From positions 372,001 through 436,000 of the forward strand of contig NC_035926.1 in the NCBI RefSeq assembly GCF_000348985.1: a stretch of DNA of 64,000 nt, read 5' to 3'. Positions 11,152-37,008 of this stretch are shown piece after piece (position 1 is the stretch's first letter; each line of letters begins with the position of its first letter). Both the position numbers and the translations under genes were made by a program. The notes under the pieces are model-generated. The model saw only the letters and a program-made list of their open reading frames with translations. It was not told the DNA's origin and made no database searches. The DNA comes from Huiozyma naganishii CBS 8797. Lineage: Eukaryota; Ascomycota; Saccharomycetes; Saccharomycetales; Saccharomycetaceae.

Positions 11152-14100
11152 TCAGTGCCGTCCTTCCTGCATTGTTTTGAAAAATGCACCAATCTCCCTC
11201 TTGGTGTTTAGCTCAAGGCCTGTTTGAACAACATCTATTGACTCAATCTCTTTTTTTGTTATATCTGTGGCACTGAGATCCTCCTCTTTACCAAAAGAGG
11301 CTATGCCCCTAAACGGTTTAAAAGACAAAGAGGAAGTTAGCGATAAAACAATCTGTTCGTACCTGGAAGGATCTTTTTGATATTGTAAAAAGATCTTTAA
11401 AAGCTTTAAGATTTCGTCTATTTCCTTTTCTTTCTTCTTCAAGATATCCATTGCAAACCGCAATTTGTTTTGCATGTTTTTTTGATGGAAACTTAAGGGA
11501 GTGTACCTGTCATCGAACGATTCCTCTACAATATATTGCAATCGGTAATAATGATCACTCACCTGCGTTTTTTCGGTCGCCAGATCAGACATCTCCTTCT
11601 CAAGCATGCTTTTCAGGGTCTCAGAAAGTGTTTCAACACTTGATTTTGTCTCCTCAAAAGCTCCCCTTTTGTCCCTTACAATCTTTTGTAACCGTTCACC
11701 CTCTGATATTCTCCAAGCGTATAAGTTCCCCACGGAGGCCTCACTACGCTGAGGCAGTTCCAAAGTACACTGGTCCTTCAAGAACTCCTTCAAATTTGCA
11801 ATATTTTCCTCGAGAACAGCAAATTCTGCGTTGATCTGATGGTAAGTACTTTCGAACAATTGCATGGTAGGGTCTTCCGACGTGTATGGGATGTTTCGTA
11901 TTTCCGCATTGGTGTAGTATTCCTTCAGTGGTTTCGGTAGATATTGTTCAGCTGCATAGTTTTCGTCGTTTTTAAAAGCCTGAACACTAAATGAACATGT
12001 TTCAATGGGATCTGTCTGAACATCTGCATCAGCAAAAGTAGTCTCGGCTTGTACCCCAAAATCTGAAGTTTCAGACAGCTCGGTGTGAACCTCGACGTCT
12101 ACCAACTCGGGAGTCGCCTGGACTGAGGTCTCAGAAAGTGACTGAGTTTTATTGACACCACTACCTTTGGCCCCCTCCAGTTCCTCCTGGATAATGTCGC
12201 TCAGATCATCGAGTGGTTCAGCACTGATGTCTTTTGCTTCTATTTTCTTTTCCTCATTACTGTTTTGTTCTTCAGCATCGTTATCAGAAATGTCATTATT
12301 GGGTGCCTCGCTATCTTCCTCGTCATTTCTTGACTTGTCTACATCTGTTGACTCCTCTGCATCTTCAGTTTCCTCATCGACCGGAGTATGAACATCCACT
12401 TCTGACTCGTCCAGACCTTTGAAATCCTCAGAATGCCATTGTTCAACATTTGCTGAACTTTCATCTTCGATTGCCTCTTCCGTTACTTCTCTATCTAAAC
12501 TTTCTGGCGTATCGCCTTCTTTTGAAGCTTCTTCAAGATCAGAAGATGGTTTATCAGCCGGAACCTCTACATTTGGTTCCTCCGACTTCTCTTCAGTTTC
12601 TATCGGTGTCTCAGATTCACCTGCTGACAGTTGCTCAAGCTTTTCTTCGAGTTCCTCTTCGGAGTGTTCAGAGTGTTCCTCGAGGTCCTTTTCAAAGTGT
12701 TCAGAATGTTCTTTGAAGTCGTCTTCAGACTGTTCTTCCAGCTGCTTGTTACCGTCCTTTTGTTTGTTTTCTTCCGGTTTTGTGTCAGTCTCTGCGTCAT
12801 TGCCAAATTTTTGTGTATCGGCTGGCAGCTCTTCATCGTCTTTGGAAGTCATATGCGCAGATTCATCCTTTTCGCTTGCATCGTGAGGTTCCTGCTCTTT
12901 ATCACTTTCCACCTTTGAAAATCTAGAATCGTCCTTCAGATCTTGTGTAGTTTCTTTTCCTAGATTTAAATTAGAGATCGAAAACGTTGGAGTGACAGGC
13001 TTCCCCAAGTTCTGTGCAAAAGATGCAAATGGAGATTTCACATTTTCCGTGGCTGACCCTCCAAGACCCGATGTTGCAAAAGTAGGAGTTGGGATATTAG
13101 CAGTGGACACATTCGCATTCTTCTTAATTGCTTCAGTGATCGTCGTGATCGAAGGTTTACCCTCGTTTGAACCTACAGTCGGTTCAAAAGGTGTTTGCTC
13201 AACAGTTGAGTCAGATAGATCATCCGAGGCAGAGTCTTCCGCTTCTTCATCTTCGTCGGTTCCTACTGACCCATCAGTACGGAATGTTTCCTCCTTCTCC
13301 TCTAAAGAGTTACCACTGTCTACTTTCTCATTAACAGCCTTCTTTTGATTTTCAATCAAAGCAGCGAACGGAGATTCTTGTGATTTTACAGCAGCAAAGG
13401 GCGATTCTTGCTGTTTGAGAGATGAAAATGGAGAGGCACCTGTTGCCGCCTTTGCAAACCCAGAGCTGGCGGATGAATTAGCTAACGAGGCAAACGGAGA
13501 AGCATTAGCATTTTCACCAGGGCCATTTGAGCCGAATGCCGGTTTACCAAAGGCGCCAAAGGCGCCAAATGCTCCCGAAGTTGTTGTCTGTTTTGACTCG
13601 TTGATTGTCGCACCAAATCCACTAGATCCAAATGCTGGTATGCCAAACGCTCCGGCAGTTGTCGTCTTATTAGCTTCGTTAACGGTAGCACCAAATCCAC
13701 TAGAACCAAATGTCGGTTTGCCAAATGCTCCGGAAGTTGTTGTTGTGCTAGCTTCGTTAACAGTAGTGCCAAACCCACTGGAACCAATCGCCGGCTTCCC
13801 AAATGCTCCTGAAGTTGTTGACTCTTTTGCTACAGACGCAAACCCAGTTGACCCAAATGCTGGTTTACCAAAAGCCGTAGACGAGGATGTGTTGTCGTTA
13901 CTAGTACTGTTACCTCCAAACGCACCTGATCCAAAAGTCGAACTTCCAAATGCCGGTGCGGTCGATGCGGGAGCCGCCCCAAAAGCCGGTTTACCAAAAG
14001 CCGCTGTTTCCGTAGAGTTATTGTCAGTATTCTGTTGCGGGGCAACTTTGGAGGTGTTGAAAGATGAGGAATCAAATGCGGGTTTACCGAAGGTGCTTTC

Positions 14101-15651
14101 AGCACCCGATTCCTCGGTTACCGTCGTTTCCTTCGATACCATTGAGAACGGGTTATCATTTGATTGGAACGAGGGAGCACCAAATGCTGGGGTGGTCGCT
14201 GGTTGCTTATCAGAGTCTTGCTCGGTTCCAAACTTAAATGAGTTGACAGATGAGGTGATATCGTCAGTTTCAGTTGCGTTTACAGGCAACTTTGCAGGTT
14301 GCTGATCGGATTGTGCAGTGTTCAGTTGTGCAGAATCTCCAATTGTCTCAAAAGTCCCTTGCGTTTTGGTAGTGTCATTAGATTGATTTGTCAATGCCCC
14401 CAAATTCTCCATGTGCAAACGGTTCTCCTTGATAGCGCGGGAGTGGTAGAATGCGAATATGAGAAGTAGCCCATCATTGGTCAAGACGTACACTAGCGGC
14501 AGTTTTTCCACGGATTCTACACCTGGGCACGGCTGATTTATAATACCACTTGAAGAGTAGTCCAGTGCGACCCCGACAGGGTTCATATCGTTATCTGTGC
14601 TTTCACTGATGGGCAAAACTGCCCTTTCGCTGTCCTGATCTGGTTGCATAACTTCTTGGCCATCCCATATTGTCAACTCACTCGATACTGCTGAGCTTAT
14701 GATGTTGATCTTGCCCGTGTTATCAACCAGCTTATCTAGCGTAATGTTGTAGTAGTTCGGGTACCTTCTTATACTCCCGAATGAGGGCGCAATGTCCAGT
14801 GACTCTGCAAAAGTGGGCTCTTGGTTCTCATGAAGCGGATCCCAATTGACCACATATGTCTTGTTATCGTAAAATACGTCATCATCTGGCTGTGGGATGT
14901 CATTCCCGAAAGCCAAAAGTAACTGTCCCGACGCGTCCAACACAGACACGCTCAAAGGTATCCTGTTTTCTTCTCTCAATTCTTGCGTTATTTCATCTGG
15001 GTACGGTGTGGTTGCGTTAAGAACTATTGTCGTGGCAGGGTGTGCCAGTTCACCCGACACGATGGCCGTTGCGGTGAGCGCGACGACGAGTTGTCTCCCT
15101 GCACAGAAATCTAACGCAAAACAGTATACGCTCTCTCCTGTCACGGTCGTTTCGTGGGAGAACAGGTCAAACAGTGCGAGTCTATGTTGGGAGTCCAGAA
15201 ATAGGACTTGCTGCCCGCCGTGTACTTGGGTCAATTGCAGAATTGAAACACCTTCGTCCAACGGGATAACGACCTCACTTTTCGAAGCAGCACCATCGAA
15301 TGAAAGCAGAGTTATGTGACCATTCTCTGCGGCGATCATTGCCTCCCCACTGTCCAAGAATCCAACTGTAATCGTCGCTGCGACGGCCGATTTTTCCCAA
15401 ATAGGTGCTGCTGCGACCTCCTGCCCACCACATACGGAGTCCCGCAGGTCCTGTAATGACCCTACAATAGCTTTCCCACCACAGCAGGCAATGTATCGCT
15501 GTGTATTGTTATCGATGGCCAAGTTGTCCAAAGCGGCGGGCGGAATCTCGTTGTCCGCGTAACCAGGGAGCACGTACTTGGAGCCGAGACTCTCGAATCC
15601 GAGATCCTCGGAGGTTTGAGTGGGCACCTCTTCACCAATAAGGGACACCAT
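11152..15651 (-). CDS. NUP159: FG nucleoporin Nup159
   Basis: Cytoplasmic-face nucleoporin that anchors the mRNA export helicase Dbp5 and the dynein light chain Dyn2. The 1499 residues comprise an N-terminal beta-propeller (about 1-400, Dbp5-binding), an FG-repeat region (about 420-780) rich in GAFGKPAFGSS units, and a long acidic Glu/Ser/Asp region (about 820-1160). Next come five Dyn2-type motifs at about 1175-1223 (SVQAT, EVHTE, GVQAE, DVQTD, SVQAF), spaced 11-12 residues apart. The C-terminal coiled coil (about 1250-1480) would bind the Nup82 complex. Domain order and length match S. cerevisiae Nup159 (YIL115C). The start MVSLIGEEV fits the family. Confidence 0.96.
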   Translation of the reverse strand: MVSLIGEEVPTQTSEDLGFESLGSKYVLPGYADNEIPPAALDNLAIDNNTQRYIACCGGKAIVGSLQDLRDSVCGGQEVAAAPIWEKSAVAATITVGFLDSGEAMIAAENGHITLLSFDGAASKSEVVIPLDEGVSILQLTQVHGGQQVLFLDSQHRLALFDLFSHETTVTGESVYCFALDFCAGRQLVVALTATAIVSGELAHPATTIVLNATTPYPDEITQELREENRIPLSVSVLDASGQLLLAFGNDIPQPDDDVFYDNKTYVVNWDPLHENQEPTFAESLDIAPSFGSIRRYPNYYNITLDKLVDNTGKINIISSAVSSELTIWDGQEVMQPDQDSERAVLPISESTDNDMNPVGVALDYSSSGIINQPCPGVESVEKLPLVYVLTNDGLLLIFAFYHSRAIKENRLHMENLGALTNQSNDTTKTQGTFETIGDSAQLNTAQSDQQPAKLPVNATETDDITSSVNSFKFGTEQDSDKQPATTPAFGAPSFQSNDNPFSMVSKETTVTEESGAESTFGKPAFDSSSFNTSKVAPQQNTDNNSTETAAFGKPAFGAAPASTAPAFGSSTFGSGAFGGNSTSNDNTSSSTAFGKPAFGSTGFASVAKESTTSGAFGKPAIGSSGFGTTVNEASTTTTSGAFGKPTFGSSGFGATVNEANKTTTAGAFGIPAFGSSGFGATINESKQTTTSGAFGAFGAFGKPAFGSNGPGENANASPFASLANSSASSGFAKAATGASPFSSLKQQESPFAAVKSQESPFAALIENQKKAVNEKVDSGNSLEEKEETFRTDGSVGTDEDEEAEDSASDDLSDSTVEQTPFEPTVGSNEGKPSITTITEAIKKNANVSTANIPTPTFATSGLGGSATENVKSPFASFAQNLGKPVTPTFSISNLNLGKETTQDLKDDSRFSKVESDKEQEPHDASEKDESAHMTSKDDEELPADTQKFGNDAETDTKPEENKQKDGNKQLEEQSEDDFKEHSEHFEKDLEEHSEHSEEELEEKLEQLSAGESETPIETEEKSEEPNVEVPADKPSSDLEEASKEGDTPESLDREVTEEAIEDESSANVEQWHSEDFKGLDESEVDVHTPVDEETEDAEESTDVDKSRNDEEDSEAPNNDISDNDAEEQNSNEEKKIEAKDISAEPLDDLSDIIQEELEGAKGSGVNKTQSLSETSVQATPELVDVEVHTELSETSDFGVQAETTFADADVQTDPIETCSFSVQAFKNDENYAAEQYLPKPLKEYYTNAEIRNIPYTSEDPTMQLFESTYHQINAEFAVLEENIANLKEFLKDQCTLELPQRSEASVGNLYAWRISEGERLQKIVRDKRGAFEETKSSVETLSETLKSMLEKEMSDLATEKTQVSDHYYRLQYIVEESFDDRYTPLSFHQKNMQNKLRFAMDILKKKEKEIDEILKLLKIFLQYQKDPSRYEQIVLSLTSSLSFKPFRGIASFGKEEDLSATDITKKEIESIDVVQTGLELNTKREIGAFFKTMQEGRH
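13425..14110 (-). repeat. FG repeats encoding region of NUP159
   Basis: Imperfect tandem repeats of roughly 26-28 codons encode GAFGKPAFGSSGFG-type units with spacers such as ATVNEA. They produce long antisense open frames that are artefacts. Confidence 0.85.
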
Positions 15652-26047: not shown

Positions 26048-28132
26048 ATGGGGTCGTCTGGTATAGAGTTTTTCAATTTAAAGGAGAAAGAGCATGTTGT
26101 CTCGCCCTGTGTAATCATTCACGGGAAATGCTCGCAGAAGAGCGCCAATGCGCAGCATATTCAAGTCCAACACCCTCAGTTACCGACTTTGAACTTCCCG
26201 ATCAATGCCAACATCTTTAAGGCGACTGTACTGTTGTCCCCTGGGGAAAACAGACTTGTTTTTGTCACGGACACTGGTGCGTCTAAAATAATCACATGTG
26301 TGTACACGCCAATGCTACAGAATAAGCCCGTCCATCTGTGTCTCATAGTCGCGAAGGACTCGCCACTAAAGTTTGATTCGCCTGCCTCACAGATCAGGAA
26401 AGAGGGCGGGAACGGGATCGACCTGGCTATCAGGAAGTTGAGAATTGGGGCAAGGATCATGCAGGCCTTCACGAACGAACAGATGCTGCGGAACGGGTTC
26501 GGGCAACGGACCTTCAATTTCGTCGAAGAGTATGCATTGGATACACAATTCAAGACCAAAACAGAGATGAGGAACACCGTGAAGATCCATGTTCTTAACT
26601 CGGACAGGTCCTTAAAAGAGATTAGAGATGCAAACGTGGCACAGCAGAACCCAAAGGGAAACAACACGGGCGCGCTTTTCTCTTGGGCCTTTGAGGCATT
26701 GGATAAGTACGGTGGGCCCTTTGCTCAAAAGGAGAGCCCAATCCAAGCTGCATGTATTTATTTGGATACCCATTGGGACGGAAACATGATTCTCGGGCAT
26801 GCGGCCCTCGGTGGTGGTAGCGACAACGTGAAACTGGCCATTTTTGGCTCCCATGGATTGTACTCTTGGCCGACGTGCATAGAAGAGATCGTCCCCTATT
26901 TCTTGGATGACACCAAGTCTTCGACACAAGAGGTTGCCAATGACTGCAATGAATGTGGGTCCCACTGGGAGTGTCTGACCGTCACTTTGGGTGCGTTCAT
27001 GCACGAGATTGGCCACTCGTTTGGGTCGCCACATCAGGTTGACGGGGTCATGCTGAGAGACTACACAAGATTGAACAGATCGTTTTTGACTAAAGAAGCG
27101 TACTCAACAAGAACCAACTCTCACGGTGCACCTTCGCCAATTTTCCCGAAGGAAGAATGTGGTTGGAACCGCATGGACTTACTAAGATATCTATTCCACC
27201 CATCGTTCGCCAAGGACACAGATTACTACGACCATGGCTTTTTCAGACCAAGCACCAACGGTAATTTCAAGTTTAGTAGACCAACGTTCTACGCCTTAGG
27301 AAATGATATGTGCCGTATATACAGTCAAACAGGGATCTACTGTATTGAAGTTGTTGCAGAGGATTTAGCAAGGGGGTTCATCGAATACCTGCCAAAAAGC
27401 TTGGGTGGTACTGGACTGGAAAAGGAAGTTTACATATCGTTAGACGAACTGCGCGGGTTGATGCCTCCAGACTGGCAAAAAAAACATGGCAACGACTTCA
27501 AATTGAGAGTACTAGCTGCCAATGCACCTGATCTGTGGATTGAGAACTTGCCCGAATCCATCAGAATTAAACCGATCTCTATGGCTCAGTACGGCTTTGG
27601 CTCGGAGGTAAACGGTATGAAGTCGGAACTGCTTGGTAGCAGCAATCGTGGTACAGAAACCGGAATTGTGCCCGTTGACGTGAGAAAAGTTATTGCCGTA
27701 AGGGTATACCACGGTGCTGCACTCGATGGTATTCGGTTTTTCATGCAAAATGCCGGGAGTCCTTCTTCTTCGAAGGAACCACCTGTTCCGCCAAGAACAT
27801 ACTTGGCAAAAATGAAGGAATCCATAAAAACATCCAAGCACAACTCCGAAACTTCTGATTCAAGTGTTTTGTTCGGTGTCCAAACCCCTGATTACACGGA
27901 TATTGTATTGGAACCTAATGAAATTATTGCTGGTTTCAATGTCCGTTATGGTGCCTGGGTAGATGCTATCCAAATCATTACCAGTCATGGGAGGATGACT
28001 GATGTATTGGGTAAAACCGGTGGGGGTGGCCCTAGTGAATTGAAACCGCCAAGTGGTCAAGTAATTCTGGGTCTTTTTGGAACAGTTGGGAGATGGGTAG
28101 ACTCTATTGGTATCGTATATGGTACCTTGTAG
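26048..28132 (+). CDS. Putative zinc metalloprotease with C-terminal jacalin-like domain (YIL108W type)
   Basis: Orthologue of S. cerevisiae YIL108W, a putative zincin metallopeptidase of unknown substrate. The 694 residues contain the extended zinc motif HEIGHSFGSPH: His319, Glu320, His323 and His329, the HExxHxxGxxH form. A long metallopeptidase domain surrounds it, and DTHWDGNMILGHAALGG lies upstream. Residues about 555-694 look like a jacalin-type beta-prism, with Gly-rich IIAGFNVRYGAWVDAIQI and the terminal GRWVDSIGIVYGTL. There is no signal peptide, so a cytosolic location is likely. The first ATG is at 26048; the upstream TTG is ignored. Position between SEC24 and PFK26 matches S. cerevisiae. 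Confidence 0.92.
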   Translation: MGSSGIEFFNLKEKEHVVSPCVIIHGKCSQKSANAQHIQVQHPQLPTLNFPINANIFKATVLLSPGENRLVFVTDTGASKIITCVYTPMLQNKPVHLCLIVAKDSPLKFDSPASQIRKEGGNGIDLAIRKLRIGARIMQAFTNEQMLRNGFGQRTFNFVEEYALDTQFKTKTEMRNTVKIHVLNSDRSLKEIRDANVAQQNPKGNNTGALFSWAFEALDKYGGPFAQKESPIQAACIYLDTHWDGNMILGHAALGGGSDNVKLAIFGSHGLYSWPTCIEEIVPYFLDDTKSSTQEVANDCNECGSHWECLTVTLGAFMHEIGHSFGSPHQVDGVMLRDYTRLNRSFLTKEAYSTRTNSHGAPSPIFPKEECGWNRMDLLRYLFHPSFAKDTDYYDHGFFRPSTNGNFKFSRPTFYALGNDMCRIYSQTGIYCIEVVAEDLARGFIEYLPKSLGGTGLEKEVYISLDELRGLMPPDWQKKHGNDFKLRVLAANAPDLWIENLPESIRIKPISMAQYGFGSEVNGMKSELLGSSNRGTETGIVPVDVRKVIAVRVYHGAALDGIRFFMQNAGSPSSSKEPPVPPRTYLAKMKESIKTSKHNSETSDSSVLFGVQTPDYTDIVLEPNEIIAGFNVRYGAWVDAIQIITSHGRMTDVLGKTGGGGPSELKPPSGQVILGLFGTVGRWVDSIGIVYGTL

Positions 28133-28323
28133 TGTTGTCGTGCTATAAGACAAACTACTCTGACCCGTATTCTCTAAATAACAATGATGAGTGAAAGCTG
28201 TCATAACGATATATAAATTAATTGTTTTAAACATGTCGAGTCAATGAATGTATATGCCGGCATTTTATTCATTCAACCTTTTGAAAAGAGAGAAAAAAAT
28301 TCTGCCCCTTCGTCATCTTACCA

Positions 28324-30708
28324 TTACCTTTCACTTTGGCTTCTTGTCATTGGAATGCCCATCTCATTTACGTCAGAAGTTGTACTATTCTCTTTACCTT
28401 GATTCTTTGAGCCCATTTCCACTTTTAGTTTCGAAAGTTTTTCGTTCAGCTTGTCAATCTCGAAACGATCCCGTAACTCGCTTGTATGTGCAGAATTGTT
28501 GATGTTAACTCCAGGGTTTTTTAGAAGTGAGGAGTTGGCGAGCTTTGGAATTTTGGAAACACCAGGAGGTTGCCTGGCCCTGAACAAAGAGTTGTTGCTA
28601 CTTCCGAATGCAACTTGCGTGCTAGTGGCTCTTCCACCCTCCGTTTGAGGTCTTTCGCCGTCTGGCCCATGGGGCTTCTCAGCATTATCCGAGACATGAA
28701 CACCAGAATGCGAAAAGCTCACACTTGCTCTTCTTTTTGTTAGGAAATCACTTGGTCCCAGATCAGCAGATGGTGGTGCGGTTGGAACGACTGAATACCT
28801 TCTTTCTTTATCAACTAGGCCAACCTCCTGCACTCTGGTAGTGTTCAGATCGGATTCTGGGATCTTGTTAAATCCATCTGTCTCCTCATCATATTCCCAA
28901 AGTGTCCACGTTATACCGTAAGGCTTAGGCTCAAGGCAGTAGATACAATGCAGCGGTACATCCAAGTTTGATATGATATCAACACTCAAATTCATATAGT
29001 ATCCCAGCAATGCCCTTGCTACCACCCTGTGGGTAATGATTAGGGTACTATCCTCAATTCTTTCCAGTTCAGTGATTACAGGTCTCAGACGGTTGATTAC
29101 ATCCATATAGGACTCACCTGCAATGCCTGGGTATCTGTAGCGTATCTTATCCTTTTGTCTTTTAGTAAACTCTTCAGGATGCTTTGCCTGAATCTCCGCA
29201 TATGTCATTCCTTCGTAGTCACCAACGCTTAATTCATCCAGCATTTTCATCTGCTTCATTGGGTACTCTTCTTCGTTGAAATACTGCGCTGTCTCAATAG
29301 CTCTAGAACGCATGCTGGTCCAGACATAGAACGCGTGATCTGCACCCTCGTTGTCCGAGTCCGAATGGGTGTCCTGCACTATGTCGTCCTTGTCTTTGAT
29401 AGTACCTTCGTTATTTCTCTTGGCCAGTTGATCTTCCTCAAAGATTGACCTCTGCTCATCTATAAATTTCGCTAACGCTTCAGCGTACTTCCGACCACGG
29501 GGGGTCAAGTGGGAGTTACCACCCAATTTACCCTTCACGTTATCCTGGCTCTCCCCATTTCTCGTGATCCAAATCTGCCGAACTGCTAAGTTGAAATTCA
29601 GTAAATAGTAAACTGTCTGTGACGCCAGAAACCCCTCGATGTTGTACGCGATAACTTTTTTCCCCACGTCAATCATCTTGATGTATTGTATGTCCTCGTC
29701 GTCCTCAATGGGTTCGTATGCTGTCAAGTAGTTGGAGAGTCTCTCCTTGAAATCTTTCAAAGAATCTTCAGGGTTTTTACCTTTATAGTCCGGTCCGAAA
29801 AGTTTCAATTTGATGTTATTCTCCACAACTGCCCTGTTCGTACAGATAGACTCCAAGAACAAAATTTTCAAATGTGGGCTTCTCTTCCTGATTGCATCGA
29901 GTACCAACTTCCTACGGCATTTCGTTGTATTAGTCGCGTCAAAGATTCCGACTGACCCTTCTCCCTCCAGTAAGTAATCTAGCAGCTCATCCAAAGTCTG
30001 CAATGCCCATTGGTTCCTCAACTGTTTACTACTCTCATTCGAAGGGTCAAAAAACTTGGAGTCCTGATCGCTCAAGTTGTGTTCTTTGGCAAACCTTCTC
30101 CTTGTGTTCCCCACGTTGAACACTTTACAATAGTACAGCGAGTAGTTCAAGAACCTCGATAGCTTGTTTGTAATAAATGATTTGCCTGTGGCGGGCAACC
30201 CAACCATGATGATCACCAGTTTGGAGCCGGAGTCCTCTTTGGCAATCAACCCATCGGGCGATGTCTTCGATTTCGTCAACCCTGGAACATCAATGGTAGT
30301 GGGTCTCCTCTTCGGATGCGAGAATTTCGTAGGTGACACGATCCCCTCTGGAGTTGTGTCCTCAACACTCTCTTGTAAATGTGCATTGATGTGCTCATCA
30401 ATTCTGGTCAAAGAGGCAGCTTGAGACAAAGCCGGAGAACTTTTCTGTGAAGTCTCTGGAGATTGGAACGTAGTGTCAATGGGCGTGTCACTCAAGGGTC
30501 TTCTCTTGAAGACAGGGAGGTCATCAGAATCAGAGTCCGAGCCGGTAATTCCAGAAATCACGTCCTGGCTTTGCGAGCCCATCGTCATTGCAGCCGTGTT
30601 CCCAGCCTGGCCCTCCCTTCTAGACGTAGACGGAGAAATATTTTGACCGACTTCGGTGTCTGAAACGTAGGGCGTTGTATCCTCGGAGAAATCAACTTTC
30701 TTGAACAT
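28324..30708 (-). CDS. PFK26: 6-phosphofructo-2-kinase Pfk26
   Basis: Makes fructose 2,6-bisphosphate, the activator of phosphofructokinase-1. The 794 residues have a Ser/Thr-rich regulatory N-terminus, a kinase domain with P-loop GLPATGKSF (about 168-176), and a C-terminal phosphoglycerate-mutase-like domain. In that domain the phospho-acceptor motif RHGES of true bisphosphatases reads RNGES, so Asn384 stands where the catalytic His should be. This predicts a kinase without fructose-2,6-bisphosphatase activity, as known for S. cerevisiae Pfk26, which also lacks that His. The C-terminal tail is Ser/Arg-rich and probably phosphorylated. Position equals YIL107C. Confidence 0.95.
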   Translation of the reverse strand: MFKKVDFSEDTTPYVSDTEVGQNISPSTSRREGQAGNTAAMTMGSQSQDVISGITGSDSDSDDLPVFKRRPLSDTPIDTTFQSPETSQKSSPALSQAASLTRIDEHINAHLQESVEDTTPEGIVSPTKFSHPKRRPTTIDVPGLTKSKTSPDGLIAKEDSGSKLVIIMVGLPATGKSFITNKLSRFLNYSLYYCKVFNVGNTRRRFAKEHNLSDQDSKFFDPSNESSKQLRNQWALQTLDELLDYLLEGEGSVGIFDATNTTKCRRKLVLDAIRKRSPHLKILFLESICTNRAVVENNIKLKLFGPDYKGKNPEDSLKDFKERLSNYLTAYEPIEDDEDIQYIKMIDVGKKVIAYNIEGFLASQTVYYLLNFNLAVRQIWITRNGESQDNVKGKLGGNSHLTPRGRKYAEALAKFIDEQRSIFEEDQLAKRNNEGTIKDKDDIVQDTHSDSDNEGADHAFYVWTSMRSRAIETAQYFNEEEYPMKQMKMLDELSVGDYEGMTYAEIQAKHPEEFTKRQKDKIRYRYPGIAGESYMDVINRLRPVITELERIEDSTLIITHRVVARALLGYYMNLSVDIISNLDVPLHCIYCLEPKPYGITWTLWEYDEETDGFNKIPESDLNTTRVQEVGLVDKERRYSVVPTAPPSADLGPSDFLTKRRASVSFSHSGVHVSDNAEKPHGPDGERPQTEGGRATSTQVAFGSSNNSLFRARQPPGVSKIPKLANSSLLKNPGVNINNSAHTSELRDRFEIDKLNEKLSKLKVEMGSKNQGKENSTTSDVNEMGIPMTRSQSER

Positions 30709-31426
30709 TACAATGCCTATAAGCTACGCAGAACGTACTGGCAGCACCTATGTTTTGACAGGGAAAGAGGGAAAACAAATCAAAACAAAATCAAACGGGT
30801 ATAAGAGAGCTGCTTTGTAGTTCACAAACACTCGTCAATTGAACAGCAGCAGATCGCCTCTATGTGTGTTCCCGTCGTCAAAGTGAAAGATAGAGGATCA
30901 AACGACGATGATGCTGCGGGTGTATGCGGGGTTAATATATGCTCCTCTGCGGCATCCCCCCAAAAAAAGCGTCAAAATGATTTGAAGGCGCCAAAACCCT
31001 AATTTTCAGAAAAAACAGCAGACTATACTTCTAGGCACGGCACGCATTAGGGCTTGGTGTGCGGGCGGGTAACGGCACGGGGGCAACACAAAACAAAAAC
31101 CCTAACTTTAGGTAAATTAGGGCTTGTGTAAGTGTTGGGTAACAGTTTAAGAACTAAGCCCTAATTTGTGTAAAGTTAGGGCTTACATTATATCAGGGTA
31201 ACAGTTTAGGGTGCAAACCCTAATCTAATTTAAATTAGGGCTCTGTTTGTTTATAGTTTCCCTTTTCGTCTCCATTTTTATTGATATTTTTTTTTGTTCA
31301 ATGATTGTATTTCCAGCGAAACTTCAAAGTGAAGATACTGAGTGTGCTTTGGATTGGGAACTTGGGGGGACTGCTAAGATAAAGAGTGTTCTGCGCTAGT
31401 GAATCATATATAAAACCACTCCGGAA
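30709..31426. promoter_or_regulatory. Divergent promoter PFK26 / MOB1
   Basis: About 720 bp shared by two divergent genes. Its middle (30995-31243) is the telomere-like motif array described separately. A T-rich tract and TATATAAAA precede the MOB1 ATG. No coding sequence or recognisable C/D or H/ACA RNA was found. Confidence 0.7.
30995..31243. repeat. Tandem array of Tbf1-type motifs with 59-bp period and Reb1-like sites
   Basis: TTAGGGCTT recurs at 31047, 31117 and 31176, and as TTAGGGCTC at 31235 (spacings 70, 59, 59). AACCCTAA or AGCCCTAA recurs at 31098, 31157 and 31216 (59, 59). GGGTAAC recurs at 31067, 31137 and 31196 (70, 59). Further single motifs are AACCCTAA at 30995 and TTAGGG at 31206. 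Each unit thus carries a GGGTAAC element and an inverted CCCTAA...TTAGGG pair. CCCTAA/TTAGGG is the yeast Tbf1 site, and CGGGTAAC at 31066 matches Reb1 in reverse. Between motifs the units have diverged, so selection on the sites is likely. Confidence 0.85.
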
Positions 31427-32536
31427 ATGTCTTTCTTACAAAATTTGTATGTTGGATTCTGTGGATTTGACGAAAGCACGATTTGTCACAATAACGTTCC
31501 CCTTTTATTATCATTATCGGTAGTCAGATTTCTTTTTTTAATCAATGGATTTCATATACTAACAGTCCCAGTACAAACGTATCTTTCATACAGTCATTTG
31601 AGTCCAGGTCAAACAATCAGGTCCACGCGGGGTTTTAAGTGGAATACTGGTCAGTCTGAAAACAATGGTTCGAAACAGCAGCAACAGAATGGACTAGGAA
31701 CTCCAGCGGGGAACACCGCATTGTTTTCCCCTCCAATCCTTCCTCCACAACAGTCACAGTATCATAACAACGGCAGTAGCAATAATAGTAGTAATGGTAA
31801 CCCCAAAGATGTCGGTCTTACTACTACACCATTGAGACAGCAAGGTAGTAATGACTTGAATCCCATATCATCACAGCAACAGACCACTGACTTTAACTAT
31901 ACCCCATCACATCAAAAACCATTCATCCAACCAACAACGGGGACAACTGTGACCACACATCAAGACATTAAACAGATAGTTGAGGTTACGTTGGGTTCGA
32001 AGGGGGTTTTGAACCAGGCAGTGAAACTACCAAAGGGAGAAAATGTGAACGAGTGGCTTGCCGTCCACGTTGTAGATTTCTACAACCAGATCAATATGCT
32101 GTACGGAACAATCACTGAATTCTGCTCTCCTGTAACATGCCCCCGGATGATCGCCACGAATGAGTACGAATATCTGTGGTCCTTTCAAAGAGGGCAAGCA
32201 CCCATTTCCGTCAGCGCGCCAAAATACGTTGAGTGTCTGATGAAGTGGTGCCAAGAGCAATTTGACGACGAGGCAGTTTTCCCCAGCAGGAAGGACGGTG
32301 TTTTCCCGGCAAGGTTTTGCGATAAAGTAGTCATCCCAATCTTAAGAAGGTTGTTCAGAGTATACGCTCACATATATTGCCATCATTTCAACGAAATACT
32401 GGAGTTGAATTTACAGACGGTTTTGAATACAAGTTTTAGACATTTCATCCTATTTGCACAGGAATTCAATTTGCTACGCGACGCAGATTACGGCCCGCTC
32501 TTGGAACTGGTTAGTGAATTAAAGGACAGAGAGTAA
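31427..32536 (+). CDS. MOB1: Mob1, kinase activator of the mitotic exit network (spliced)
   Basis: Co-activator of the NDR/LATS-type kinase Dbf2 in mitotic exit and cytokinesis. The coding sequence joins 31427-31446 and 31594-32536, giving 320 residues (S. cerevisiae 314). Splicing yields MSFLQNFHLSPGQTIRSTRGFKWN, nearly identical to the S. cerevisiae N-terminus. The 31-160 region is Gln/Asn/Ser-rich. The Mob domain follows (about 165-320), with the zinc-site Cys pair in TEFCSPVTCPRM and a C-terminal YAHIYCHHFNEI segment carrying the zinc-site histidines. The unspliced frame is also open, so naive translation would add about 49 wrong residues. Position equals YIL106W, which is also intron-containing. 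Confidence 0.96.
   Translation: MSFLQNLYVGFCGFDESTICHNNVPLLLSLSVVRFLFLINGFHILTVPVQTYLSYSHLSPGQTIRSTRGFKWNTGQSENNGSKQQQQNGLGTPAGNTALFSPPILPPQQSQYHNNGSSNNSSNGNPKDVGLTTTPLRQQGSNDLNPISSQQQTTDFNYTPSHQKPFIQPTTGTTVTTHQDIKQIVEVTLGSKGVLNQAVKLPKGENVNEWLAVHVVDFYNQINMLYGTITEFCSPVTCPRMIATNEYEYLWSFQRGQAPISVSAPKYVECLMKWCQEQFDDEAVFPSRKDGVFPARFCDKVVIPILRRLFRVYAHIYCHHFNEILELNLQTVLNTSFRHFILFAQEFNLLRDADYGPLLELVSELKDRE
31447..31593 (+). other. MOB1 intron
   Basis: 147-bp spliceosomal intron. The donor is GTATGT (31447-31452), the branch site TACTAAC (31557-31563) and the acceptor CAG ending at 31593. It interrupts codon 7 (phase 2). A closer CAG at 31569-31571 is probably too near the branch point to be used. 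Confidence 0.95.
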
Positions 32537-32707
32537 GAATAGTAATAATAATAATAACGATAAGGTATGTGTAGGCTGGTGTTTAAAAATATATGCTTGT
32601 TTTTCATTTGATTTTTTTCGATTAGTTTTTGTTAGGACGTGCGTCTGTGATTTTGGGGTTCCTTCTTCGAGTTCCCTGCTCGGCACATGCAAGTCCTCAT
32701 AAGATGT

Positions 32708-34723
32708 CTAGTTGACATCTTTATGACTGTCCATAGGTACCTCTAAAAACATGTTTGGTACCTTCGAATTGTAGAGGTAGGAATCATTTGTATGTGGTAG
32801 TGAAGAGTTTGTATCGACATTCGTTATCGTTGTATTCTCATTGTCATCCACGTTGGTCAATGAAGAATTCGTGGTGAACTGTCTTGTGGTGGTGGTTGCA
32901 GTGGTGGATGTCGTGTTTGTCTTCGCCGTTGAGATTGTAGAGCTTCGTGGTCTCGGCTTGTTGTTCTCATCCAGGTTCAATTTCTTCTTTAAAAAAACCT
33001 TCTTATCCTTGGCGCTGTTAGCCTCCATTATCTTCTTGATGTCTTCAAACCAGCCAGCCATCTCTTCATGAGAGTTGAATTTGAAAACCCAGTTGTGGCT
33101 CCTGTTCAACAAGCTCTCCTGTCTTTTCAGTAACACGAACTTTGTGTCCTTTTTAATCGATGTGTTGTGTTCCTTTAATTTGCAGCTTGCTAATGGAATG
33201 GAAAGAATAGGGACAGGATCCTTCCTGCGATCACTGGTCTTAAATTCGTGAATGTAATTAGCAGTCAAGACGTAAAATCCCCTCGAATAGGATTTTAAAA
33301 TCTTAGACCGTCTTTCGATATACCCAGACCTGACTTCATATGTGATAGGGTCATGTTGCGATTTGTAAACGATGTCCTTGTAGTTTCGCATCGGCAGATC
33401 AGAGGCTATGAAGTTTGGGTCTTTCACGATGAAATTGTTCCATTCAAATAGTGGGTCCACGTTGAAAAACCCCATATCCAATTTCGAGATCAGCGCATCA
33501 AATATGAGCTGGTTCTGTTGTCCAAGGAGTCTCGCGTATATGGTCAATGCATTCTGGATCTCCATCACAACCACTTTCTCCAGTTCCAACCCAGACCTCT
33601 GCAAGTTATCAAACGCCTCGTGCAGTAAGTTTTCCTCGCTCAGTTGTCTCTTGATCTGTCTGTCCAATGACAACTTGGCCAAGTAAGGATCCATCTTTGG
33701 TTTATCAAAACTCGCATCCTTGAGTGATTCTTGGAAGGTGGTCATCAACTGTTTCGTTGCCCCCAACTCCCTATTACACGAGTTTTTGAAATCAGACTGT
33801 AGCGTCTTGATTTCCTTGATCTTCACGAGTAGGTCTCTTCTCAAATCGTCGAGCCGCGGTATCACGTCCGTGCTGAGCTCCCTGGATGCGTTGGATGCGT
33901 ATGAGGCCATCACCTCATGGTACTGGCCGAAAATGGTGGGCAAATCCTGTACAGAACCGTTCCCCAAGGGAGCAAAAAACTTCTGGTTCATCTTATCCTC
34001 ACTGGACACCGGTTGGTACTTGTTTTGAAGGGTGAAGAAGGGGAAGTTGATCGCGTGAGACAGTCTTAGCTGTTGCCTGACTATCTCGTCCTGGATCGAG
34101 GCTGTCTCTGTGAGGTACAACGTCAACGATTTGATCACGCTCCTCCATGCGGAAAACCGGTCCGCCAGTATAGTTGTTGGCTGCGCAGTGGTGGGGAGCA
34201 AAACCACAAGCGGTGAGCTAGAGTCTGCTGACACTGTCTGCACATTCATGGACGTCAATCTTTGAGGGTTGGATTGTAAAGATGTCCGTATCTTTGAGTA
34301 GATTGAGTTGTTGGTCAGCGAGTTCTTCTGTTTCGGACTCGGCACGCTGCCGATCCCATTGCCAAGGTACTGTCTATTATCCTTCGTGAGAGTGTTCTGC
34401 CTTGTCCCCCCCGTTGCCTGCATCACGTTCGGTGATGTCTCTGTCAGCGTATCTTCCAAACTGGGCAACGCATACAGTGCCGGTTTCTGTTTCATGGATA
34501 GAGAGTTTTTTTGCAAACTGGGCAACCGCTGCTGCTGTTGTTGTTGTTGTTGCTGCTGTTGCTGTTTAGCCACGTCCAGTCTCTGCTGGAAGTAGGAATT
34601 GGGATATTCTTTCCTCGTCAGACTCCTCGTATGATTCTGTAGACTGTGTAGGTGTTGTAAGTTTTCCTGCTGGTGCGATAGCACATCTGACATGCTGTAC
34701 GGCATCGTGTTTGATCTCGACAT
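32708..34723 (-). CDS. SLM1: PH-domain TORC2 effector Slm1/Slm2
   Basis: Plasma-membrane PI(4,5)P2-binding protein that links TORC2, eisosomes, actin and calcineurin. The 671 residues begin with a Gln-rich region including an uninterrupted polyglutamine run of about 12 (residues about 53-64). A helical F-BAR-like region follows (about 190-440). The PH domain (about 460-575) contains SGYIERRSKILKSYSRGFYVL and the closing WVFKFNSHEEMAGWFEDI. The tail is Thr/Ser/Asn-rich and may hold the calcineurin docking site. Position equals SLM1 (YIL105C); SLM2 is the duplicate. Confidence 0.94.
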   Translation of the reverse strand: MSRSNTMPYSMSDVLSHQQENLQHLHSLQNHTRSLTRKEYPNSYFQQRLDVAKQQQQQQQQQQQQRLPSLQKNSLSMKQKPALYALPSLEDTLTETSPNVMQATGGTRQNTLTKDNRQYLGNGIGSVPSPKQKNSLTNNSIYSKIRTSLQSNPQRLTSMNVQTVSADSSSPLVVLLPTTAQPTTILADRFSAWRSVIKSLTLYLTETASIQDEIVRQQLRLSHAINFPFFTLQNKYQPVSSEDKMNQKFFAPLGNGSVQDLPTIFGQYHEVMASYASNASRELSTDVIPRLDDLRRDLLVKIKEIKTLQSDFKNSCNRELGATKQLMTTFQESLKDASFDKPKMDPYLAKLSLDRQIKRQLSEENLLHEAFDNLQRSGLELEKVVVMEIQNALTIYARLLGQQNQLIFDALISKLDMGFFNVDPLFEWNNFIVKDPNFIASDLPMRNYKDIVYKSQHDPITYEVRSGYIERRSKILKSYSRGFYVLTANYIHEFKTSDRRKDPVPILSIPLASCKLKEHNTSIKKDTKFVLLKRQESLLNRSHNWVFKFNSHEEMAGWFEDIKKIMEANSAKDKKVFLKKKLNLDENNKPRPRSSTISTAKTNTTSTTATTTTRQFTTNSSLTNVDDNENTTITNVDTNSSLPHTNDSYLYNSKVPNMFLEVPMDSHKDVN

Positions 34724-35400
34724 GCTATTTTAGTCCTCAACGTGATTTTTGTGCCCAAAATTGTGGAACTCTATGCCAATATGTATATAAGCACACAGCT
34801 ATATATATATATATAGCTGATCTAAAACTGTTCAGCCCTTTTAGTAAGTAGTAGCACAACCTAAACACCACTAGGGGGGGTTAGAGACAGGGCAAGGGAA
34901 GAGAAAACTGCTCGAGTATCTGTGTTCAGCAATGTTTTCATCGGAGGGGGAGGAGAGAGAGAGAACGTGTTCTACGTATGTACATCGGGGTAGCCCGTGA
35001 TAGCCAGAAACGGTCAACCCACACAAGTTGAAGTAATCAGATAATAGAGGCAGAGAGAGGGAAATACCTGACCTTGCATCCGCTGCCGTGTGGAGTGAGC
35101 AAAAGACAATGATTCCGGCAATGAGGCCATTGTATTTTTCCCAGAAATTTCTTTTTTTCGTCTTCGTCTTTTCTTGCGCAGACAATGCAGCACAGAGAAG
35201 CGCGCGCAGAGGGAAACAGAGGTGAGAGGAAACCACGTAGCGCGCGCTGTCCCAACGCGGTAAAAAAGGGGAGCGGCTCCCGAATCTGGGAGGCCACTTT
35301 CCCGATTGGGCAGGCCGCATATTACGCAATAGGGGCCAGTTTCCGCATCACGCCCTCACCCCCCGGCCTGCGGTGTTTTCTGAGGCCATCTTTTTTTTAC
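34724..35400. other. Intergenic SLM1-SHQ1
   Basis: 677 bp with no supportable gene. It includes a perfect 24-bp AT-cored palindrome (34796-34819) just upstream of SLM1 and a GC-rich GCGCGC-containing stretch near 35200-35250. The longest open frame (minus strand, 34871-35329) has no family resemblance. Confidence 0.6.
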
Positions 35401-37008
35401 TTAGGGACGCTGCGCGTACATCTGCTCGGCGAGAGTCTCCACCTCGTTGATGGTGATGCGCACGGTTGGTCTTCCCTGTCCCCCGGTGGGTTCCTCGCTT
35501 TGCACTGGGGGTATCGAGGTGAGCAGTTCTCCGGGTTTATCAGTGTCGATGTCATTGATGCCGGCGTCGTCGTCGTCGTCGTCTTCCACTAGGAAGTCTA
35601 CGGTGGATTTGGAGACTTGCGACAGTTCTTTATGTACCTCGAGAGCCAGTGACCTGATCACCGTTTCATTGCCTTGGTCAATGAACCAACTGCACAGATC
35701 GTCCAGGAGGCACTTGTTGTAAACGTAGTACACGTCGTGGTACCGGAACAGCTCATGGACCGCCAGTAGTACCTTGATAACAAGCCGCTTCCCGCCGCTG
35801 AGTATGTGGTACGCATGGCGCCACGCTCTTTCAGATAGGTCGAAAACTCTGTGGAGCGGATAGCAGAGAGACCTCCGGAACCCTGCTCTTATACTGGACT
35901 GGATGATCGATTCCTGCTTTGTAGCAGGGTTGTTGCTACTGTGCGTGGCCTCTTTTATCAGTACGTTTTCTTGTAGTGGTGGTTCCTCGGGCACAAGTTG
36001 CTGATCCAAGTACGCAATCTGCGGGGTGAGCTTCCCCACGGTCCAAATACTTTCACTGGTTTGGTCGCCCTCGTTTTCCAAGAGATCGAAACTGTAACTG
36101 AACAAAATGTTCAGAATGGTGATATAACTCAGTTTGGTCGTCTCGCTGCTCAACAGACTGTAACTCTTGTGCGGTAAATTTTTCTGCATTTGCTCCTTTT
36201 CTTTGTCACTGAACTCAATTGGCATGGTCGCTTGGGTATCTGGTTCAGTCTTCCGCCAATCTAAGTAATCTTTGATTATAGGTGGCGTGAAGGACATGAT
36301 CTCCCGGATTCTACTGATCATTAGATCGTCCTCATCGCCGTACTTGCCTGTCATATACTCAGAAGCGTAATATCCATCATCAAAGGACACATCCTCAGTC
36401 CGTAACCGTTCCACACACCGCTCGTTAGCATTCGTGTGTTCGGGATCTCTCAGACCGTTTATCTCATTTCCATTTGATATGGACAAACCGATGATATCAC
36501 TATACGCACCGTCGAACCCATACTTAGCCCCGTTGAGTATGTCCTTCTCGGGCTGCTCTGTCTGCTCAATTTCCCAATCGAATGCCTGACCTTGCTCAGA
36601 GATGTTTTTCAACTCGTTAGGATCCTCAGCTGTATTTCTTTTACTATCCAACTCTTGAATCAGTGGGCCATTCGGTTTATCGTTCGCAGCCTTGCCCGCG
36701 TCGTCGTTGATTCTCGCTAGTAACTTACTATGCAGATCTAAATCTTCAAACACTTGGCCATGAACTCGTTTGGGTGCCGTAACCAAAATACACTCCTCAC
36801 CAACAATAAATTTGGTGCTCGCTCTTTCATCCTCCACCAATTCATTATCAAACCGCAATCTCAGATAGTAAGGCGCTAAATGGAATATGAGCGTATTCCC
36901 GTCAATGACAACTTCTACACCGTGGGAAGAAAACCTGATAGAACTAATGTAAATTTTGACATGGATGAATTCATCATCCTGAGTGATGTCGAACTTGGGA
37001 GTGAGCAT
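35401..37008 (-). CDS. SHQ1: Shq1, box H/ACA snoRNP assembly chaperone
   Basis: Binds free dyskerin (Cbf5) and guides assembly of H/ACA ribonucleoproteins. The 535 residues have an N-terminal CS/Hsp20-like domain (about 1-90, MLTPKFDITQDDEFIHVKI...). A variable acidic linker follows. The helical SHQ1 domain (about 255-490) carries FRRSLCYPLHRVFDLSERAW and AVHELFRYHDVYYVYNKCLL. Near the end is a poly-Asp stretch (EDDDDDDAG). The open frame extends upstream, but the conserved start is the ATG at 37008. Length is close to S. cerevisiae Shq1 (507). Position equals YIL104C. Confidence 0.94.
   Translation of the reverse strand: MLTPKFDITQDDEFIHVKIYISSIRFSSHGVEVVIDGNTLIFHLAPYYLRLRFDNELVEDERASTKFIVGEECILVTAPKRVHGQVFEDLDLHSKLLARINDDAGKAANDKPNGPLIQELDSKRNTAEDPNELKNISEQGQAFDWEIEQTEQPEKDILNGAKYGFDGAYSDIIGLSISNGNEINGLRDPEHTNANERCVERLRTEDVSFDDGYYASEYMTGKYGDEDDLMISRIREIMSFTPPIIKDYLDWRKTEPDTQATMPIEFSDKEKEQMQKNLPHKSYSLLSSETTKLSYITILNILFSYSFDLLENEGDQTSESIWTVGKLTPQIAYLDQQLVPEEPPLQENVLIKEATHSSNNPATKQESIIQSSIRAGFRRSLCYPLHRVFDLSERAWRHAYHILSGGKRLVIKVLLAVHELFRYHDVYYVYNKCLLDDLCSWFIDQGNETVIRSLALEVHKELSQVSKSTVDFLVEDDDDDDAGINDIDTDKPGELLTSIPPVQSEEPTGGQGRPTVRITINEVETLAEQMYAQRP

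Follow-up and report, generated by a model that had tools for sequence, protein, structure and literature searches.

Tbf1-type site array in the divergent PFK26-MOB1 promoter region of Kazachstania naganishii and the spacing of such sites in its genome

In Saccharomyces cerevisiae the general regulatory factor Tbf1, which is related to telomere-binding proteins, targets about 300 protein-coding loci as well as snoRNA genes, with clustered TTAGGG/ARCCCTA sites in their promoters. According to the accessible part of the study by Lavoie and colleagues (PMC2834713), S. cerevisiae Tbf1 has no orientation or spacing requirement, whereas Candida albicans Tbf1 requires the palindrome TTAGGGN6CCCTAA, known from ribosomal protein genes. 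The two published species give opposite answers as to whether Tbf1 needs spaced site pairs. A third species that prefers other gaps allows tests of how binding grammar evolves on the basis of a single conserved DNA-binding domain. In the available sections of PMC3642058, Tbf1, Reb1, Abf1 and Rsc3 are described as nucleosome-excluding; loss of any of the four in S. cerevisiae leads to cryptic promoter transcripts, and loss of Tbf1 is linked to changed promoter nucleosome occupancy. In excerpts of the work of Hall and colleagues (PMC11482950), Reb1 and Abf1 are presented as insulator factors, which uncouple adjacent genes.

The pair of PFK26, a heat-shock gene, and MOB1, a cell-cycle gene, is a decoupling model in S. 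cerevisiae: heat-shock Msn2/4 drives PFK26 and an Mcm1 site shields MOB1 (PMC4820839, in the portion available). A 2025 commentary, as far as its accessible text goes, uses the pair to illustrate torsional insulation and describes its intergenic region of less than 400 bp as holding sites for factors that include Abf1 and Reb1 (PMC11875534). The same pair in the same orientation is found in Huiozyma (Kazachstania) naganishii CBS 8797 (genome size 10.85 Mb, 13 contigs). It lies in the window analysed here, the whole stretch of 64,000 nucleotides from position 372001 to 436000 of contig C5 (856,010 bp). Gene names and divergent orientation, as proposed in the first-pass annotation, were confirmed by the Pfam domains, an intron near the MOB1 5′ end and the ORF positions (Table 1). 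Where S. cerevisiae has the Mcm1 block, the K. naganishii region measures 718 bp, contains nine sites of the Tbf1 type and lacks an Mcm1 consensus; Reb1 sites are present in S. cerevisiae, and a candidate Reb1 site is found here as well. The accessible portions of the open literature retrieved in a search hold no description of such K. naganishii arrays.

Table 1 Features of the PFK26-MOB1 region (window coordinates)
Feature	Position	Strand	Details
PFK26-type 6-phosphofructo-2-kinase gene	28324..30708	-	Pfam 6PF2K + His_Phos_1
Tbf1-type site array	30995..31243	.	nine TTAGGG/CCCTAA hexamers (30997-31240, 244 bp)
Outermost hexamer, PFK26 side	30997..31002	-	
Outlying unit 1	31047..31073	+	TTAGGGCTT + CGGGTAAC (31066-31073); TTAGGG 70 bp ahead of that of unit 2
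Candidate Reb1-type site	31066..31072	+	CGGGTAA, only consensus copy in the intergenic region
59-bp unit 2	31097..31155	+	AAACCCTAA, TTAGGGCTT 11 bp past CCCTAA, GGGTAACAGTTTA
59-bp unit 3	31156..31214	+	AAGCCCTAA, TTAGGGCTT 11 bp past CCCTAA, GGGTAACAGTTTA, extra TTAGGG at 31206
Tail-to-tail pair	31206..31223	.	TTAGGG-N6-CCCTAA
Partial unit 4	31215..31243	+	AAACCCTAA, TTAGGGCTC 11 bp past CCCTAA, without GGGTAAC
Presumed Fkh-like site	31247..31254	-	ATAAACAA, adjoining the last TTAGGG, MOB1 side
Poly(dT) tract	31287..31295	+	between array and MOB1
MOB1 gene	31427..32536	+	Pfam Mob1_phocein
MOB1 exons and intron		+	exon 1 31427-31446; intron 31447-31593; exon 2 from 31594

TTAGGG begins at 31047, 31117, 31176, 31206 and 31235 on the forward strand and at 30997, 31100, 31159 and 31218 on the reverse strand. 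The earlier count of nine hexamers in about 250 bp is correct, and these are nine of the 24 hexamers in the window. At the rate outside the array, where the other 15 are located, 0.06 hexamers would be expected per 250 bp. Since the window total matches the shuffle mean of 24.7, the signal lies in the clustering and not in the total. The array had also been described as built on a 59-bp step. This step is exact for CCCTAA at 31100, 31159 and 31218 and for TTAGGG at 31117, 31176 and 31235, but does not extend over the whole 250 bp: TTAGGG at 31047 precedes the next TTAGGG by 70 bp and CCCTAA at 30997 precedes the next CCCTAA by 103 bp, so that the register covers three units only. The array is absent from the tandem repeats reported by TRF at score 50.

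Within units 2-4, TTAGGG begins 17 bp after the start of CCCTAA. GGGTAAC, located at 31067, 31137 and 31196 as annotated before, begins 20 bp after the start of TTAGGG in units 2 and 3 and also in the outlying unit 1. Between units 2 and 3, 21/22 motif columns are identical, as are 17/37 spacer columns, for which shuffling gave a mean of 11.4 (P 0.03); the corresponding values are 17/22 and 17/37 (P 0.017) for units 3 and 4, and 18/22 and 15/37 (P 0.09) for units 2 and 4. Unit 1 shares 12-16 of 22 motif columns with the others, while its spacer identity (8-9/37) is at chance level. These column identities agree with the earlier view that motifs were kept while spacers diverged. An old tandem duplication with retained motifs fits best, with a weak spacer signal.

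A genome-wide count of the nonamer TTAGGGCTT had been suggested as a check on the uniqueness of the array. The nonamer is over-represented, with 221 occurrences compared to 40 of the reversed pattern; together with a minimum of 25 clusters, this rules out uniqueness. Tandem pairs of the form TTAGGGY-N0-30-TTAGGGY occur 131 times in the genome (reversed control: 13), head-to-head pairs with RCCCTAA first 52 times (5) and tail-to-tail pairs 33 times (0). Merging of the listed pairs, which included 100 of the 131 tandem and 50 of the 52 head-to-head ones, yielded at least 63 clusters, among which at least 25 have a minimum of three sites; both figures are lower bounds. In hexamers per 250 bp, the PFK26-MOB1 array ties for third place among 25 clusters (10, 10, 9, 9). 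The favoured site context over 151 sites is AATTAGGGYTTG.

The clusters are mostly located between ORFs and next to ordinary genes. Among 17 of the 18 nonamer places on contig C1, the nonamer falls within an ORF exceeding 500 residues at three (L005, L006 and L025) and outside any ORF of at least 200 residues at 14, some of which overlap short ORFs. A long intergenic region on contig C3 (42348-44198, L070 and its neighbours) contains short ORFs only and two TTAGGG clusters about 600 bp apart; L070 yielded no Rfam match. At L027 (positions 1501 and 1843), the nonamer is found 342 bp upstream of an ORF that we take to resemble ribosomal protein L15, with TTACCCG 51 bp before it.

Paired sites favour certain gaps. 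Among the 50 head-to-head pairs listed of 52, 18 have a gap of 0-1 (10 loci), 20 a gap of 8-12 (14 loci) and two a gap of 2-7. Tail-to-tail pairs have N 9-10 between TTAGGGY and RCCCTAA, equal to 11-12 between hexamers, in 18 of 33 cases (13 loci); as pairs in one array are non-independent, the locus counts are the safer measure. For adjacent hexamers in 25 arrays, 16/36 head-to-head gaps are 0-1, 1/36 is 2-7 and 15/36 are 8-13, and 15/28 tail-to-tail gaps are 11-12. As a control, hexamers were placed randomly 2000 times in 16 arrays sized like the densest clusters. The tail-to-tail share at 11-12 was 0.54 compared to a random mean of 0.06 (maximum 0.26), and the head-to-head share at 2-7 was 0.03 compared to 0.33 (minimum 0.04). 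The head-to-head class at 0-1 reached 0.44 (random mean 0.15, maximum 0.44). At 8-13, the observed share of 0.42 (random mean 0.21) is below the random maximum of 0.50, so this class alone is inside the random range. Gaps of tandem pairs are broad.

In the PFK26-MOB1 array, gap 11 separates the hexamers of three head-to-head pairs, which are copies of one duplication and count as a single event; a tail-to-tail pair with gap 6 is also present. The N6 arrangement accounts for 1/33 tail-to-tail pairs in the genome and 1/28 adjacent pairs, both times the pair in Table 1; a palindrome of the C. albicans type is not the prevailing pair. As in C. albicans, inverted hexamers in K. naganishii form pairs that prefer a certain gap, but the C. 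albicans tail-to-tail gap is 6, whereas the main one here is 11-12 and is joined by a head-to-head class. No ribosomal protein gene is among the Pfam-named cluster neighbours. The S. cerevisiae grammar is random, whereas gaps are favoured genome-wide in K. naganishii; this speaks against that grammar only, and not against Tbf1 binding. The K. naganishii pairs match neither rule. The favoured gaps suggest that Tbf1 binds paired sites as dimers or as neighbouring molecules on preferred helical faces.

Head-to-head pairs at gap 0, such as those at L013, L016 and L040, read CCCTAATTAGGG, which contains CCTAATTAGG, presumably resembling an Mcm1 site. Sites for Tbf1 and Mcm1 could overlap in these pairs, and because of the Mcm1-like word it may be another factor that the gap-0 class serves. 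For K. naganishii, the accessible text of PMC6173580 reports an enrichment of Mcm1 sites at ribosomal protein genes.

One gene of the TRF family was found in the genome. Its product is KNAG_0J01470 of H. naganishii CBS 8797 (100% over the full length). Residues 471-566 align to S. cerevisiae TBF1 (PDB 8x6d, E 2.3e-43) and residues 47-352 to 8x6e. The Myb domain is conserved between the two proteins, with the stretch NRTQVQLKDKARNWK identical. The claim of Tbf1-type sites in a divergent promoter was upheld, and the genome encodes a matching Tbf1. Another TTAGGG-binding protein might take the place of Tbf1.

All three GGGTAAC words had been read as Reb1-like, a claim that held for one of them. 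CGGGTAA at 31066 is what we take to be the Reb1 consensus, as did the first-pass annotation. The sequence CGGGTAAC is not over-represented in the genome (236 compared to 292 for the reversed control), but is found within 200 bp of TTAGGGCTT at six of 88 places on C1-C3, which is beyond chance (shifted mean 0.44, largest 4 in 2000 shifts; 88 of the 236 places, with 12 rows of C4 left out). DGGGTAAC is rarer than its control (641 compared to 1523 in the genome) and near TTAGGGCTT at 1/82 places on C1 (mean 0.50; 82 of the 641 places, with the C2 rows left out). Judging from these proximity counts, the word at 31066 is a fair candidate for a Reb1 site and the other two are doubtful. A Myb search of the genome gave 21 matches, none assigned to Reb1. 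A genome-wide composite of the form TTAGGG-N0-30-GGGTAAC found no support, as its 11 matches, three of them in the PFK26-MOB1 array, equal the 11 of the reversed control. Two further matches share the 27-bp length of these three, one on C7 inside a 1008-residue open frame and the other on C8.

A word scan of the 718 bp revealed no STRE (AGGGG) or Mcm1 (CC-N6-GG) consensus and no canonical Msn2/4, Abf1 or replication-origin consensus word. One heat-shock (Hsf1)-like word, GAAACTTC, is present at 31318 on the MOB1 side and one Rap1-like ACACCC at 30918 on the minus strand.

For the 25 clusters, the nearest ORF on each side was read by eye; as two of them occupy the same intergenic region, there are 24 places. 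By this reading, 19 of 22 resolvable places (all but L072 and L074) are divergent promoters, although at five of them one of the flanking ORFs is weak (L016, L049, L061, L064 and L070). The exceptions are L007 (tandem), L071 (convergent, judging from a 102-residue ORF) and L067 (within an ORF end). Of the promoter-bearing intergenic regions in the window, 8/22 are divergent, or 38% by length, which gives P about 2e-6 to 4e-6 for the bias; this background is small, comes from one 64-kb window and includes the PFK26-MOB1 array. Against an assumed background of 60%, P is 0.008. Flanking ORFs of PFK26-MOB1 and of 15 of the other 23 places were compared with Pfam (all except L007, L061, L067, L070, L071, L072, L073 and L074). 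Both sides matched at nine of these 16 places, including eIF4E/hydrolase, Sec62/SLAC1, Raptor_N/Elongator Iki1, TCP-1/FAD-binding and PFK26/MOB1; as all 16 had previously been read as divergent, the nine matches are no independent test. The bias thereby supplies candidate insulators occurring in nature, including one at the gene pair on which decoupling has been studied in S. cerevisiae and which has been discussed there in terms of torsional insulation.

We consider it probable, at about 0.7, that the array is a promoter element for both genes. Several copies of Tbf1 would occupy it, joined by Reb1 at one site toward the PFK26 side, and the bound proteins would hold the middle of the intergenic region nucleosome-free and serve the PFK26 and MOB1 promoters alike. 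More tentatively, by its position between the two start regions the array might restrict cross-talk between the genes. This idea gains from the divergent bias and from the S. cerevisiae work on the same pair. The lack of a STRE argues against insulation for heat-shock reasons, and with no STRE or Mcm1 consensus and the heat-shock-like word on the MOB1 side, the reason that applies in S. cerevisiae is not evident here.

A serious alternative, to which we give somewhat less than even odds, is that the array is merely a shared UAS of PFK26 and MOB1, bound by Tbf1 or not, without an insulating role; it overlaps with the promoter-element reading and differs from it on insulation. As one UAS can serve two genes, it would account for the divergent bias. 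It is also consistent with the distances of the array from the start codons (183 bp for MOB1, 286 bp for PFK26), with the one cluster between tandem genes and with the cluster-flanking genes, among which no common theme was discerned. However, it offers no reason why a pair that is differently regulated in S. cerevisiae should share an activator. The opposite extension, in which K. naganishii Tbf1 is a dedicated insulator of divergent pairs with its own grammar and its array has replaced the S. cerevisiae Mcm1 block at PFK26-MOB1, appears unlikely. Such a grammar would combine two head-to-head classes, with gaps of 0-1 and 8-12 that differ by about one helical turn, with tail-to-tail gaps of 11-12, which are offset by about half a turn from the gap of 6 in C. 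albicans.

That the array is the promoter of an unannotated noncoding RNA, e.g. a snoRNA, is improbable. In work attributed to Preti (2010), Tbf1 is said to mark snoRNA promoters in S. cerevisiae, which would favour such a role, as would a nonamer on contig C1 upstream of snoRNA genes. At this locus (L031, 505-1210, minus strand), snR41, snR70 and snR51 lie in a row and TTAGGGCTT precedes snR41 by 291 bp, consistent with the established link between Tbf1 and snoRNAs. However, it is the only one of 37 site-surrounding loci scanned to show an RNA family, and Rfam gave no match, and hence no known snoRNA near the array, in the window. With E up to 5, positions 28000-35500 gave two sub-threshold Rfam matches only, both outside the intergenic region. 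For the unseen RNA suggested earlier, no known family was matched in the window; a transcript of no known family is conceivable.

Still less probable is a neutral minisatellite, i.e. a functionless tandem duplication of a 59-bp piece. The three units in exact step, their residual spacer similarity (15-17/37 columns) and self-similar shifts in some other arrays, e.g. 33 bp in L066, would be expected from it, but motif columns among units 2-4 agree at 17-21/22 with spacers nearer chance, and motif and spacings recur at many unrelated places. An interstitial telomere or subtelomeric remnant has hardly any likelihood: the hexamer equals the vertebrate telomere repeat and S. cerevisiae STARs (subtelomeric anti-silencing regions) hold Tbf1 and Reb1 sites like the array (PMC3060084, in its accessible part), but the hexamers are isolated, in both orientations and 6-47 bp from their neighbours without a head-to-tail repeat, and the array is not subtelomeric but 403 kb into the 856-kb contig, which weakens the telomere-like framing given to it before. 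Stretches from three of 26 contig ends (one of C1 and both of C5, 400 bases per C5 end) contained no telomere repeat.

Two further features were observed in the window. A 78-bp tandem repeat (13564-13820, 3.3 copies) lies within the span of a 1499-residue minus-strand ORF (11152-15651), and an ORF at 26048-28132 combines a putative peptidase domain with a C-terminal Jacalin-like lectin domain.
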